From assembly GCA_003164095.1 (NCBI GenBank), contig PLRX01000155.1, positions 64,547 through 97,584 on the forward strand: 33,038 nucleotides of DNA, read 5' to 3'. The notes under the pieces are model-generated. The model had not been told where the DNA came from, did no database searches, and saw nothing but the letters and a program-made list of their open reading frames with translations. This document shows positions 20,395 through 23,533 of the stretch, in pieces. A program made the translations under genes and the position numbers. The DNA comes from Acidimicrobiaceae bacterium. Lineage in GTDB: Bacteria > Actinomycetota > Acidimicrobiia > Acidimicrobiales > RAAP-2. Positions within the stretch are counted from its first letter, which is position 1, and the number at the start of each line of letters is the position of its first letter.

Positions 20395-21582
20395 ATGCCG
20401 CGCTTCGCACCGTTCGCCGGACTCCGGTACGACTCCGCCCGGGTGACGCTCGCCAAGGTGATCGCCCCGCCCTACGACGTGGTCGGACCCACCGAGCGGG
20501 CCACCCTGGCCGCACGGCACAGTGTCAATGCCATCCTGGTCGAGTTGCCCGAGCCCGACTCCCGCAGCGGGAGCGACCGCTACGCCGCGGCCGCCGCCCG
20601 GCTGCACGCGTGGCGTGCCGACGGGGTCCTCGTGCGGGACCGGGACCCTGCCTTCTACGCATACCGCATGACCGATCCCGACGGCTCGACGACCGTCGGC
20701 GTCCTGGGCGAACTCGGACTCGAGCCGGGCAGCGTCGAGGAGATCCTGCCCCACGAGGAGACCCTTCCGAAGGCGAAGAGCGATCGGCTCGAGCTCCTGA
20801 CCGCCACCAGGGTCAACCTCTCCCCCATCTGGGGTCTGTCGCTCGCCTCCGGCCTGACCGCGCTGGTGGACACCGCGGGTCCGCCGACGGCGTCGGCCAC
20901 CGACGACGACGGCGTCCTCCACGAGCTGTGGGTCGTCGACGACCCGTCGACGGTCGCCGCAGTCGCCGAGGTGGTCGGCTCGGCCCCGGTCGTGGTGGCC
21001 GACGGGCACCACCGCCTGGCCACCGCCACCACGTACCGACAGGGGGCGGGCGTCGGCACCCCCGGCGCCGACGGCGTCCTGGCCCTCGTCGTCGAACTGT
21101 CCGAGGACACGTTGTCGGTCGGGCCCATCCACCGACTGCTGTCCGGGCTGCCGGACGGACTCGACCTGGTGGACGCCTTCACCTCGTGGTTCGACGTGGC
21201 CCGTGCCGGCGACTGCACCGAACGCACCACCACAGCACTGGGCGAGTCGTCCGCACTGGCGCTGGTGACCCCGGCGGGCTGCTGGCTGCTCACACCCCGG
21301 GACGGCACCCCGGAGGCGGCCGGATCGGACCTCGTCTCGTCCATGGTGGCCATGGTGCTGGCAGAGCTGCCGGACCACGAACTCACCTTCGCCCACAGCT
21401 GGCAGGAGGCGGTGGCGGCCGTGTCCTCCGAGACGGTCCAGGCTGCCGTCCTGCTGCCACCGGTGACCGTGGCGCAGATCGACGCCTGGGCACGGGCCCG
21501 GCGCCGGATGCCCCCGAAGAGCACGTACTTCCACCCGAAGCCCCGCACGGGGATGGTCTTCCGGGCCCTCGACCCGGACTGA
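20395..21582 (+). CDS. DUF1015 family protein
   Basis: 395 residues, the whole length of the DUF1015 family. Recognised from FAPFAGLRYD...APPYDVV at the N-terminus, HEETLPKAKSDRLELL (about 120-135), VVVADGHHRLATA with the conserved DGHHR at 203-207, and the ending MPPKSTYFHPKPRTGMVFR. It is cytoplasmic. The biochemical role of the family is not established; the invariant DGHHR suggests a catalytic or nucleotide-handling site. Confidence 0.93.
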   Translation: MPRFAPFAGLRYDSARVTLAKVIAPPYDVVGPTERATLAARHSVNAILVELPEPDSRSGSDRYAAAAARLHAWRADGVLVRDRDPAFYAYRMTDPDGSTTVGVLGELGLEPGSVEEILPHEETLPKAKSDRLELLTATRVNLSPIWGLSLASGLTALVDTAGPPTASATDDDGVLHELWVVDDPSTVAAVAEVVGSAPVVVADGHHRLATATTYRQGAGVGTPGADGVLALVVELSEDTLSVGPIHRLLSGLPDGLDLVDAFTSWFDVARAGDCTERTTTALGESSALALVTPAGCWLLTPRDGTPEAAGSDLVSSMVAMVLAELPDHELTFAHSWQEAVAAVSSETVQAAVLLPPVTVAQIDAWARARRRMPPKSTYFHPKPRTGMVFRALDPD

Positions 21583-21676: not shown

Positions 21677-22936
21677 GTGGCACCAGGACGACGAGTGGGG
21701 GTGGGCACCGCCGTGGCCCTGATGCTGACCGTGGCCCTGGTGGCGGCGGCCTGCGGGTCGTCATCGGCTGCCCGCTCCGTCCGTCGCACCCCGCCGACCA
21801 CGGCTGTGCCGACCACCACTGCGCCCACCACGACGCTGCCCTCCGCCGTGCCGACGACGGTGCCGACGCCCGTCGTGCCCGCCGTCGGGTGGGCCCGGCC
21901 GGCGACGACACTGCCCCCGGCGGGCGGCTACACCGGCGTCTCCTGCATCTCCGGGGTGTTCTGCGTGTCCGTGGGCGGCGGCGCCAACGAGGCCGACGTG
22001 TCGGACTCCACGGGCCCGGGTGTGGTCAACGCCTGGGACGGTGCCGTCTGGGGAACGCCGTCCGACTACTTCGCCACGCCGGTGGGCGGCTCGACCACCG
22101 CCCCCGAGCTGCCCGGTATCGCCTGCTCGTCGGGCCCGCTGTGCGCCGTCGTCGACGGATCCGGGCACACCTCGCTGGGCGACGGCACGAACTGGTCGAC
22201 CCCGGCCCCGCTGGCCGCCGCGCCGTCCGCGCCGGCCAACCCCGGGGATCCCGGCCCGGACCACGAGGGATCGAGGTCCGCCGCTGTGGACTGCCCGTCC
22301 GGCCAGTTCTGCGCCTACGTCGACAACACCGGGCACGTGGCCGTGCTCCAGGGGACGACCTGGTCCGCGCCGCAGACCATGACCACGGCCTCGGCCTCTG
22401 GCACCGTGGACCTCTACCAGTCGGGTCGGGTCGGGATGTCCTGCACCGGGGACTCGTCGTGCACCGCCCTCGTCGGCGACACGGTGCTCGACTGGAACGG
22501 ATCCTCGTGGACGGCGTCGCCCGCACCGTGGCCGTCCGGCACGACTGGCGACTCGGCCGTCTCCTGCGCGGCGGCAGGGGCATGTGTGGCCGTGCGCGGC
22601 CCCTTCGTGTCAGTGCGCCTCCAGGGGTCGGGCTGGTCGACACCCCGTTCGATCGACCCTGACGGGCACCTCGACGCCGTGTCGTGCCCCACGCTGGCGT
22701 TCTGCATGGCCGTCGACGCCTACGGGAACGTCGTCCAGCTGACCGGCGGCGCCTGGTCCTCACCGGCCAAGGTCGTCCCGACGCCGACCGAGTACGCAGG
22801 GGACGGCACCAGCCTGTCGTGCCCGACCGACCAGTTCTGCATGCTGCTCACCGGCGACGGCGACTACGCCACCTACCAGGGGACGGACCCGAACGCCTCG
22901 GTCACGACCACCACCCTGCCGATCGTCACGCCCTGA
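21677..22936 (+). CDS. Lipoprotein with seven CX5C beta-propeller-like repeats
   Basis: 419 residues. Signal peptide with a lipobox-like LVAAAC (Cys 26), Thr/Pro/Val linker (about 38-68), then seven repeats. Each opens with a hydrophobic-[SDA]-C-x5-C motif (first Cys at 90, 150, 206, 256, 297, 337, 382), followed by a VDxxG-type turn and usually a Trp strand (WSTP, WSAP, WSSP). The count of seven and the repeat length of 40-60 residues suggest a seven-bladed propeller with an in-blade disulfide in each blade. Similar Cys-paired repeat proteins occur in other actinobacteria, function unknown. The ending is another Thr-rich tail. Confidence 0.8.
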   Translation: MAPGRRVGVGTAVALMLTVALVAAACGSSSAARSVRRTPPTTAVPTTTAPTTTLPSAVPTTVPTPVVPAVGWARPATTLPPAGGYTGVSCISGVFCVSVGGGANEADVSDSTGPGVVNAWDGAVWGTPSDYFATPVGGSTTAPELPGIACSSGPLCAVVDGSGHTSLGDGTNWSTPAPLAAAPSAPANPGDPGPDHEGSRSAAVDCPSGQFCAYVDNTGHVAVLQGTTWSAPQTMTTASASGTVDLYQSGRVGMSCTGDSSCTALVGDTVLDWNGSSWTASPAPWPSGTTGDSAVSCAAAGACVAVRGPFVSVRLQGSGWSTPRSIDPDGHLDAVSCPTLAFCMAVDAYGNVVQLTGGAWSSPAKVVPTPTEYAGDGTSLSCPTDQFCMLLTGDGDYATYQGTDPNASVTTTTLPIVTP

Positions 22937-22984: not shown

Positions 22985-23533
22985 TCAGGGGGAGACGCCG
23001 GCCAGGTCGGCGAGCGCCAGGACGGTCCGCCAATTGCGGGCGGTGCCCACCCGTCCGAGGCGCCGCTCCAGGAACGCGTTGGTCAGCTTGGCCTGGTGGT
23101 ACCCGGCCGGGGTGTGGAGGTAGACGTCGGGCCCGGACACGGCCAGTCGCTCCGGCGCCAACCCCTCCGATTCGGTGACCAGGGCGTCGACCCGGTCCGG
23201 GTCGGGGACGGCGTCGAGGAACGCCACGTGCAGCCGCTTCGGGTCGTCGTCCAGGTCGAGCAGCGGGTTGCCGGCCACCGTCGCCGCCCACTGCGCGGAC
23301 GAGCGGGGCACCACCCGCACGGTCACGCCCAGTTCTGCCTCGATGGCCCCCTCCGTCGCGGATGCCAGCTGCTCGGCGAGGCTGCCGGACCGGCACACGG
23401 CGTTGCCGCTCTGGAGGTAGGTGACGACGTCCTCACAGCCGAGCCCGGCCAGCAGAGCCCGCAGGTCGGCCATGGGCACCCGGTTGTGCCCACCGACGTT
23501 GACGCCGCGCAGGAGCAGGAGGTGGGTGTCCAC
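22985..23533 (-). CDS. DUF1697 family protein
   Basis: 182 residues, full length for the family. LLLRGVNVGGHNRVPMADLR and VVTYLQSGNAV are the N-terminal hallmark; AKLTNAFLERRLGRVGTARN with WRTVLALADL closes it. Function unknown; soluble. The GTG at 23533 follows an imperfect -10 (TAGGGC, 23540-23545) by 6 nt, and korB ends 31 nt upstream. Confidence 0.9.
   Translation of the reverse strand: MDTHLLLLRGVNVGGHNRVPMADLRALLAGLGCEDVVTYLQSGNAVCRSGSLAEQLASATEGAIEAELGVTVRVVPRSSAQWAATVAGNPLLDLDDDPKRLHVAFLDAVPDPDRVDALVTESEGLAPERLAVSGPDVYLHTPAGYHQAKLTNAFLERRLGRVGTARNWRTVLALADLAGVSP

Follow-up and report, generated by a model that had tools for sequence, protein, structure and literature searches.

Within the window, by which we mean the whole 33,038-nucleotide stretch of DNA that was analyzed, which comes from an uncultured actinobacterium, a single ORF with a GTG start (21677-22936, plus strand) encodes a 419-residue protein with one cysteine pair of CX5C spacing in each of its seven predicted propeller blades. 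Our reading is that the protein serves the cell envelope as a rigid docking platform without catalytic activity, and we give that statement, taken whole, a probability of roughly 60%. The computed basis of this reading is the repeats, the predicted fold, conservation and gene order; docking itself is our guess by analogy, drawn from general knowledge of propellers, and the partner would be somewhat more likely a protein than a glycan. The features of the locus are collected in Table 1.

Table 1. Features of the propeller gene and its neighbors, in window positions.
Feature	Position	Strand	Basis
DUF1015 protein, upstream neighbor	20395..21582	+	Pfam PF06245, E 1.6e-66
Putative signal peptide, aa 1-25	21677..21751	+	direct sequence reading
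Putative lipobox Cys26 (LVAAAC, aa 21-26)	21752..21754	+	direct sequence reading
Thr/Pro/Ser-rich linker, aa 27-70	21755..21886	+	sequence
Predicted seven-bladed propeller domain, ~aa 71-401	21887..22879	+	AlphaFold2 model, fold searches
N-terminal W-strand GWARP, aa 71-75, predicted outer strand of blade 7	21887..21901	+	sequence pattern
CX5C pair 1, CISGVFC, predicted blade 1	21944..21964	+	sequence, model
CX5C pair 2, CSSGPLC, predicted blade 2, then VDGSG	22124..22144	+	sequence, model
CX5C pair 3, CPSGQFC, predicted blade 3, then VDNTG	22292..22312	+	sequence, model
CX5C pair 4, CTGDSSC, predicted blade 4	22442..22462	+	sequence, model
CX5C pair 5, CAAAGAC, predicted blade 5	22565..22585	+	sequence, model
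CX5C pair 6, CPTLAFC, predicted blade 6, then VDAYG	22685..22705	+	sequence, model
CX5C pair 7, CPTDQFC, predicted blade 7, then conserved GDGDYAT	22820..22840	+	sequence, model
Low-confidence C-terminal tail and stop	22880..22936	+	pLDDT <50, model residues 342-355
DUF1697 protein, convergent downstream neighbor	22985..23533	-	Pfam PF08002, E 3.2e-38

The start codon is preceded at a few bases by GGAGG, and the N-terminus reads like that of a bacterial lipoprotein, with a short putative export signal that ends in a lipobox cysteine. Upstream of the propeller, a simple lipobox pattern occurs in 13 of 14 orthologues, counting L043, whose match is perhaps not the true site; in L036 a lipobox, TGGAAC, was read by eye. 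Those orthologues that were inspected have Thr/Ser/Pro-rich stretches as well. A preliminary description of this DNA had called the product a surface lipoprotein: the lipoprotein-type signal stands on direct reading, and a surface location is suggested by the lipobox together with the Thr/Pro-rich stretch.

The protein contains 15 cysteines, namely the lipobox Cys26 and 14 residues that make up exactly seven CX5C pairs. The first Cys of each pair falls at residues 90, 150, 206, 256, 297, 337 and 382, giving spacings of 60, 56, 50, 41, 40 and 45. Across 10,000 shuffles of residues 27-419 the motif appeared 0.46 times on average and at most 4 times, ruling out a chance origin of seven. All 14 propeller cysteines are invariant in the 14 named orthologues (45-68% identity), and every one of the 15 aligned rows (the window protein plus orthologues) has 14 Cys in the domain, all of them accounted for by its seven CX5C pairs. 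The seven exact pairs of the preliminary description are thereby borne out, with no propeller cysteine left over, and two further elements of its repeat pattern hold in part. A V-D-x-x-G turn, said to follow each pair, follows only those of units 2, 3 and 6; it is a family consensus that the window protein retains in just three blades. A W-strand follows units 1-6; unit 7 instead reads YATYQG, without W, and a further W-strand precedes unit 1, where W72 is invariant in the 15 rows. A W before unit 1 and none after unit 7 is what would be expected of a ring closed by a 'velcro' strand, a pattern seen here at the level of sequence. The domain is also slightly wider than the 21920-22870 first proposed.

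Database searches placed the protein in no established family. Pfam and NCBIfam gave only matches below cut-off (best Inhibitor_I36, E 0.02), and neither the window protein nor a family profile matched any PDB sequence. PHROGs, searched with a 12-member family alignment, matched at most two members per family and not the window protein, the best being a tail-fibre family at 3.3e-6 for one of the 12. Six family members gave scattered weak Pfam matches, those with a stated cut-off falling below it. No dedicated model for the CX5C repeat was found in the copies of Pfam, NCBIfam and PHROGs searched, and among the titles listed by a literature search of open-licence papers none described this bacterial repeat. 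The relative L029 had no protein match in plasmids or phages, and a first search of viral contigs yielded no relative. Two weak viral-contig relatives lie in DNA that holds no CX5C array; weakly similar NGTxW repeats without the CX5C pair are found on the viral contigs at L157:4612-5193 and L158:5001-5300.

The protein belongs to a little-described bacterial repeat family. A count of paralogues, suggested as a check in the preliminary description, turned up eight ORFs on eight contigs of the same genome at E <= 0.01, the window ORF and seven others. Four of these have seven units (C38, C36, C94 and C83), C104 has six, C109 six by eye, and C114 14 by eye, some of them CX4C. Matches occur in at least 8 of 296 genomes of a phylum-wide sample at 1e-15 and in at least 46 of 248 genomes of the order at 1e-25, the source genome included in both; the counts are lower bounds because at most seven or eight candidates were scored per genome. 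Up to 15 family matches occur in one genome of the order. Among 591 units, taken from 40 outside regions and four of the source genome, the two cysteines are exactly five residues apart in 554 and three to eight apart in the remainder. Perfect spacing, which had been singled out as unusual for this protein, is instead the rule of a repeat family of its order, with the unit consensus LTSVSCPSTTFCVAVDSSGNALTYNGSSWSAPTSID. A model blind to both Cys columns found 521 units, and all 521 carried both cysteines; this count used ORFs with at least three CX5C motifs and may miss decayed units.

Relatives are embedded in long proteins with TIG, Big_3, fn3 or RHS domains. An RHS-repeat protein of the source genome (L016:3066-8672, minus strand, on C36) has a seven-unit array between RHS-type stretches, and another (L111:4983-11924, plus strand) has two arrays, of seven and six units, in the same setting. 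The protein at L142:2623-8133 (plus strand), a possible protease-propeller fusion, combines a kumamolisin activation domain and a TIG domain with two seven-unit arrays. In L015, L031, L070, L150 and L151 the array is followed by another repeat type, GYWLVAADGGVFSFGDA.

The number of units per array favors sevens. Among 51 arrays that lie clear of contig ends, the unit count is an exact multiple of seven in 29, and in 37 after one-unit gaps are filled. The outside regions behind this sample were hand-picked from match listings, mostly in rank order, passing over lower matches as well as two regions close to contig ends, G537:C3 and G470:C101; five arrays at contig ends, two stretches of fewer than five units and one ORF without a counted unit were dropped. 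We claim no probability for the sevens, given a search built on a seven-unit alignment and the relatedness of many arrays. A lone W-strand piece stands in front of 28 of the 51 arrays, and in 35 the last unit ends before its W, together what closed, permuted rings should look like in sequence. The 14 arrays that stay off sevens after filling have 5 (one), 6 (five), 11, 12 (two), 13 (two), 16, 26 and 30 units; the count of 16, in L108, includes weak matches in a TIG region. L015 was counted as seven units and has 14 by eye.

Some of these departures may come from assembly. Six of the seven arrays at 11, 12, 13, 16 and 30 units contain exact DNA repeats of 74-112 bases, the seventh (L123) one of 35, and repeats of this length make assembly collapse possible. 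The median exact repeat is 20 bases in multiples of seven versus 54.5 in the other arrays; some multiple-of-seven arrays hold repeats equally long, up to 127 bases. L119, L120, L121 and L130, with 11-13 units and exact repeats of 82-104 bases, may have had units dropped by metagenome assembly. Six-unit arrays in L017 (C104) and in L070 (C109), the latter outside the 51, belong to a subfamily whose W is preceded by TLAESWNG-like strands; they may be real exceptions, and are possibly six-bladed rings or arrays that lost a unit.

We modeled the window domain with AlphaFold2 from its alignment with the 14 orthologues. The 355-residue model forms a seven-bladed propeller (pLDDT 83.3, pTM 0.85), with pLDDT below 50 only at residues 42-44 and in the last 14. 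The preliminary description had predicted this fold and proposed structure prediction as its check; fold searches agree with the outcome. Foldseek retrieved 982 PDB chains at E <= 0.001, led by Ycf48 (5oj5; E 9.3e-12, TM 0.59 and 0.66, 12% identity); chains titled Ycf48 make up nine of the ten best matches, and BamB also ranks high. VIA-align puts WD40 and other propellers first: its best match is 3ow8 (Z 26.7, 272 residues, 2.7 A), followed by 2ymu (Z 26.5) and, also at Z 26.5, the designed seven-bladed propeller WRAP-T (7big; 273 residues, 2.7 A). Unlike WD40 proteins, the window protein has no Pfam WD40 match. With seven similar antiparallel blades arranged in a ring in the model, the domain is almost certainly a seven-bladed beta-propeller. 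This is a common fold that tells little about function.

In all seven blades of the model, the CX5C pair spans the first two strands, which agrees with the earlier suggestion of one staple per blade. On topology and co-conservation, the pairs very probably form intra-blade disulfides. That the cysteines instead bind metal or do redox chemistry seems to us most improbable: fourteen invariant cysteines in one domain would suit such a role, but the modeled pairs sit on neighboring strands of one hairpin, there is no invariant His to go with them, export of the protein is predicted, and both cysteines are kept together in every family unit found by the Cys-blind model. We rejected a metal site on these grounds. 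In keeping with predicted disulfides, the genome encodes a VKOR, a type of enzyme that makes disulfides in exported proteins; a match to the DsbA-like Thioredoxin_4 falls below cut-off.

An enzymatic propeller, for example a glycosidase or a lyase of the virginiamycin B lyase kind, is very unlikely. Virginiamycin B lyase is among the best VIA-align matches (Z 25.8), but the 15 aligned rows contain no invariant His, Glu, Lys or Arg, and no Pfam enzyme family scores over cut-off. The missing His includes any counterpart of the conserved His of that lyase, whose catalytic role we take from a structure title (inactive H270A). Asp is the only type of charged residue that is invariant, which makes catalysis unlikely, and we rejected an enzyme. 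The best conserved loops are the B-C turns (mean 0.729). Mean loop conservation is 0.643 on the presumed binding face versus 0.628 on the other, with boundaries set by hand, and the two faces do not appear clearly different.

A close comparison is with Ycf48 / HCF136, the best Foldseek matches, and with the PSII_BNR and Asp-box (BNR) propellers. Ycf48 is itself seven-bladed, and Asp-boxes have the pattern D-x-G-x-x-W. At the same place the family consensus retains N/D-G-x-x-W, whereas the window protein has no intact Asp-box, its units yielding no S/T-x-D-x-G-x-x-W repeat, and has a CX5C pair in each blade instead. It does not match the Ycf48 family PF14870 (PSII_BNR), so we do not file it there, and no protein in the whole genome scores over that cut-off. 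The relative L118 (minus strand, 1202 residues, 14 units) combines CX5C with TTDGGLTW and matches PF14870 at 1.2e-16 (61.3 bits, cut-off 27, with no single stretch passing alone); it also exceeds the cut-offs of Sortilin-Vps10 and BNR_2. By hhalign the family profile aligns to L118 with 97.6% probability, a score helped by shared cysteines and repetition. Since L118 joins CX5C to true Asp-boxes and matches the Ycf48 family, the repeats look like a stapled branch of the Asp-box propellers. We infer the direction of change, in which the first hairpin of an Asp-box-type propeller would have gained the staple.

This kinship raises the possibility of an envelope assembly factor, a propeller that holds a nascent membrane or envelope complex as Ycf48 does for photosystem II or BamB for outer-membrane assembly. 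The Foldseek ranking and the Asp-box member with its PF14870 match speak for such a role. Fold similarity shows no function, however, VIA-align ranks other propellers first, and for the window protein itself there is no PF14870 match; we regard this role as possible but doubtful.

One Cys pair per blade has precedents among eukaryotic propellers. The plant receptor kinase CRINKLY4 is reported to have seven extracellular repeats, modeled as a propeller of seven blades, and each repeat has a Cys pair and a predicted internal disulfide (PMC4617170). Its motif, C(X10)CWG, differs from that of the window protein, in which no CWG follows the CX5C, and its RCC1-like blades are modeled with three strands. 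PfCyRPA of Plasmodium is a solved propeller with intra-blade disulfides and a non-enzymatic surface protein of a complex (PMC5349852). It has a sialidase-like fold with a single Asp-box and six blades, five of them with disulfides and the velcro blade unstapled, in contrast to the seven blades of our model. Compared with both, the window protein comes from a bacterial lineage, uses CX5C as its motif and carries a pair in every one of its seven predicted blades, the velcro blade included.

Conservation of the gene and its surroundings bears on its role. In a search of 60 relatives, near full-length matches (E <= 2.4e-98) occur in nine of 13 same-genus genomes and in both genomes of one other genus, and three further genomes match other family members (E <= 1e-20). 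The gene is not universal even in its own genus, since at E 1e-20 four of the 13 lack a match, and their genomes are 69, 92, 92 and 94% complete. By reading, 11 of the 14 named orthologous loci are the same sequences in a second collection. Their titles name Acidimicrobiaceae (eight), Acidimicrobiales (four), Actinomycetes (one) and only a bacterium (one), and the isolate names of four include palsa or bog.

Gene order is conserved for the most part. A DUF1015 gene occurs at 10 of the 14 loci, a DUF1697 gene also at 10 (not always adjacent), a gene that we take to encode OFOR beta lies downstream at 13, and an SGNH-like gene, a label resting on a sub-threshold GDSL match, is found at 11; these counts cover the fetched flanks, and some misses are due to contig ends. 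The orthologous loci L036, L037, L044 and L046 have no DUF1015 match, and at L036, L037 and L046 the first match upstream, of the genes tested, is the SGNH-like gene. The neighbors are housekeeping or uncharacterized genes and point to no partner.

A kept place, with OFOR beta downstream at nearly every locus, resembles that of a housekeeping gene and would suit an assembly factor, for which the four same-genus genomes without a match count as a difficulty. The preliminary description had suggested that the protein binds a polysaccharide or protein outside the cell, and a lectin or adhesin-like sensor of polysaccharide would accord with the lipid anchor and stalk, the relatives within long TIG, Big_3, fn3 or RHS proteins and the many family matches in some genomes. 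We nonetheless think it unlikely, as the orthologues of the window protein conserve both place and sequence, which is unusual for adhesins. Among 14 relatives scanned, the only lectin-type match was Tectonin, below cut-off, and a CBM77 match in L029 was below cut-off as well. The stable neighborhood argues for a fixed role in the envelope and against an exchangeable adhesin.

As a docking platform, the protein would be exported and lipid-anchored, and its Thr/Pro-rich stalk would hold a single seven-bladed propeller outside the membrane. The first two strands of each blade would form a hairpin whose CX5C pair is predicted to close as a disulfide, and the N-terminal W-strand would complete blade 7 and so close the ring. 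Such staples may help the domain resist unfolding outside the cell. In blades 1-3 and 7, long loops, both the B-C loops and those that connect blades, would make up the face that confers specificity.

We give an even chance to a broader reading. The family would be a bacterial propeller superfamily, not found in our literature search, that is stapled in every blade including the velcro blade. It would have arisen from Asp-box propellers via a CX5C disulfide in the A-B hairpin and grown by whole rings (7, 14, 21 and 28 units), so that each array consists of closed rings in a row. In a group of Acidimicrobiaceae, several of them from peat and permafrost, the window member would be a fixed part of the envelope. 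If the pairs are oxidized, the family offers a natural series of exported propellers, many in whole sevens, in which every blade carries a staple, and with it a stable scaffold family for protein designers and a direct test of how propellers acquire disulfides. It would also allow annotation of a repeat that occurs often in some of the order's genomes, and mark a conserved, unstudied envelope protein of uncultured bacteria.
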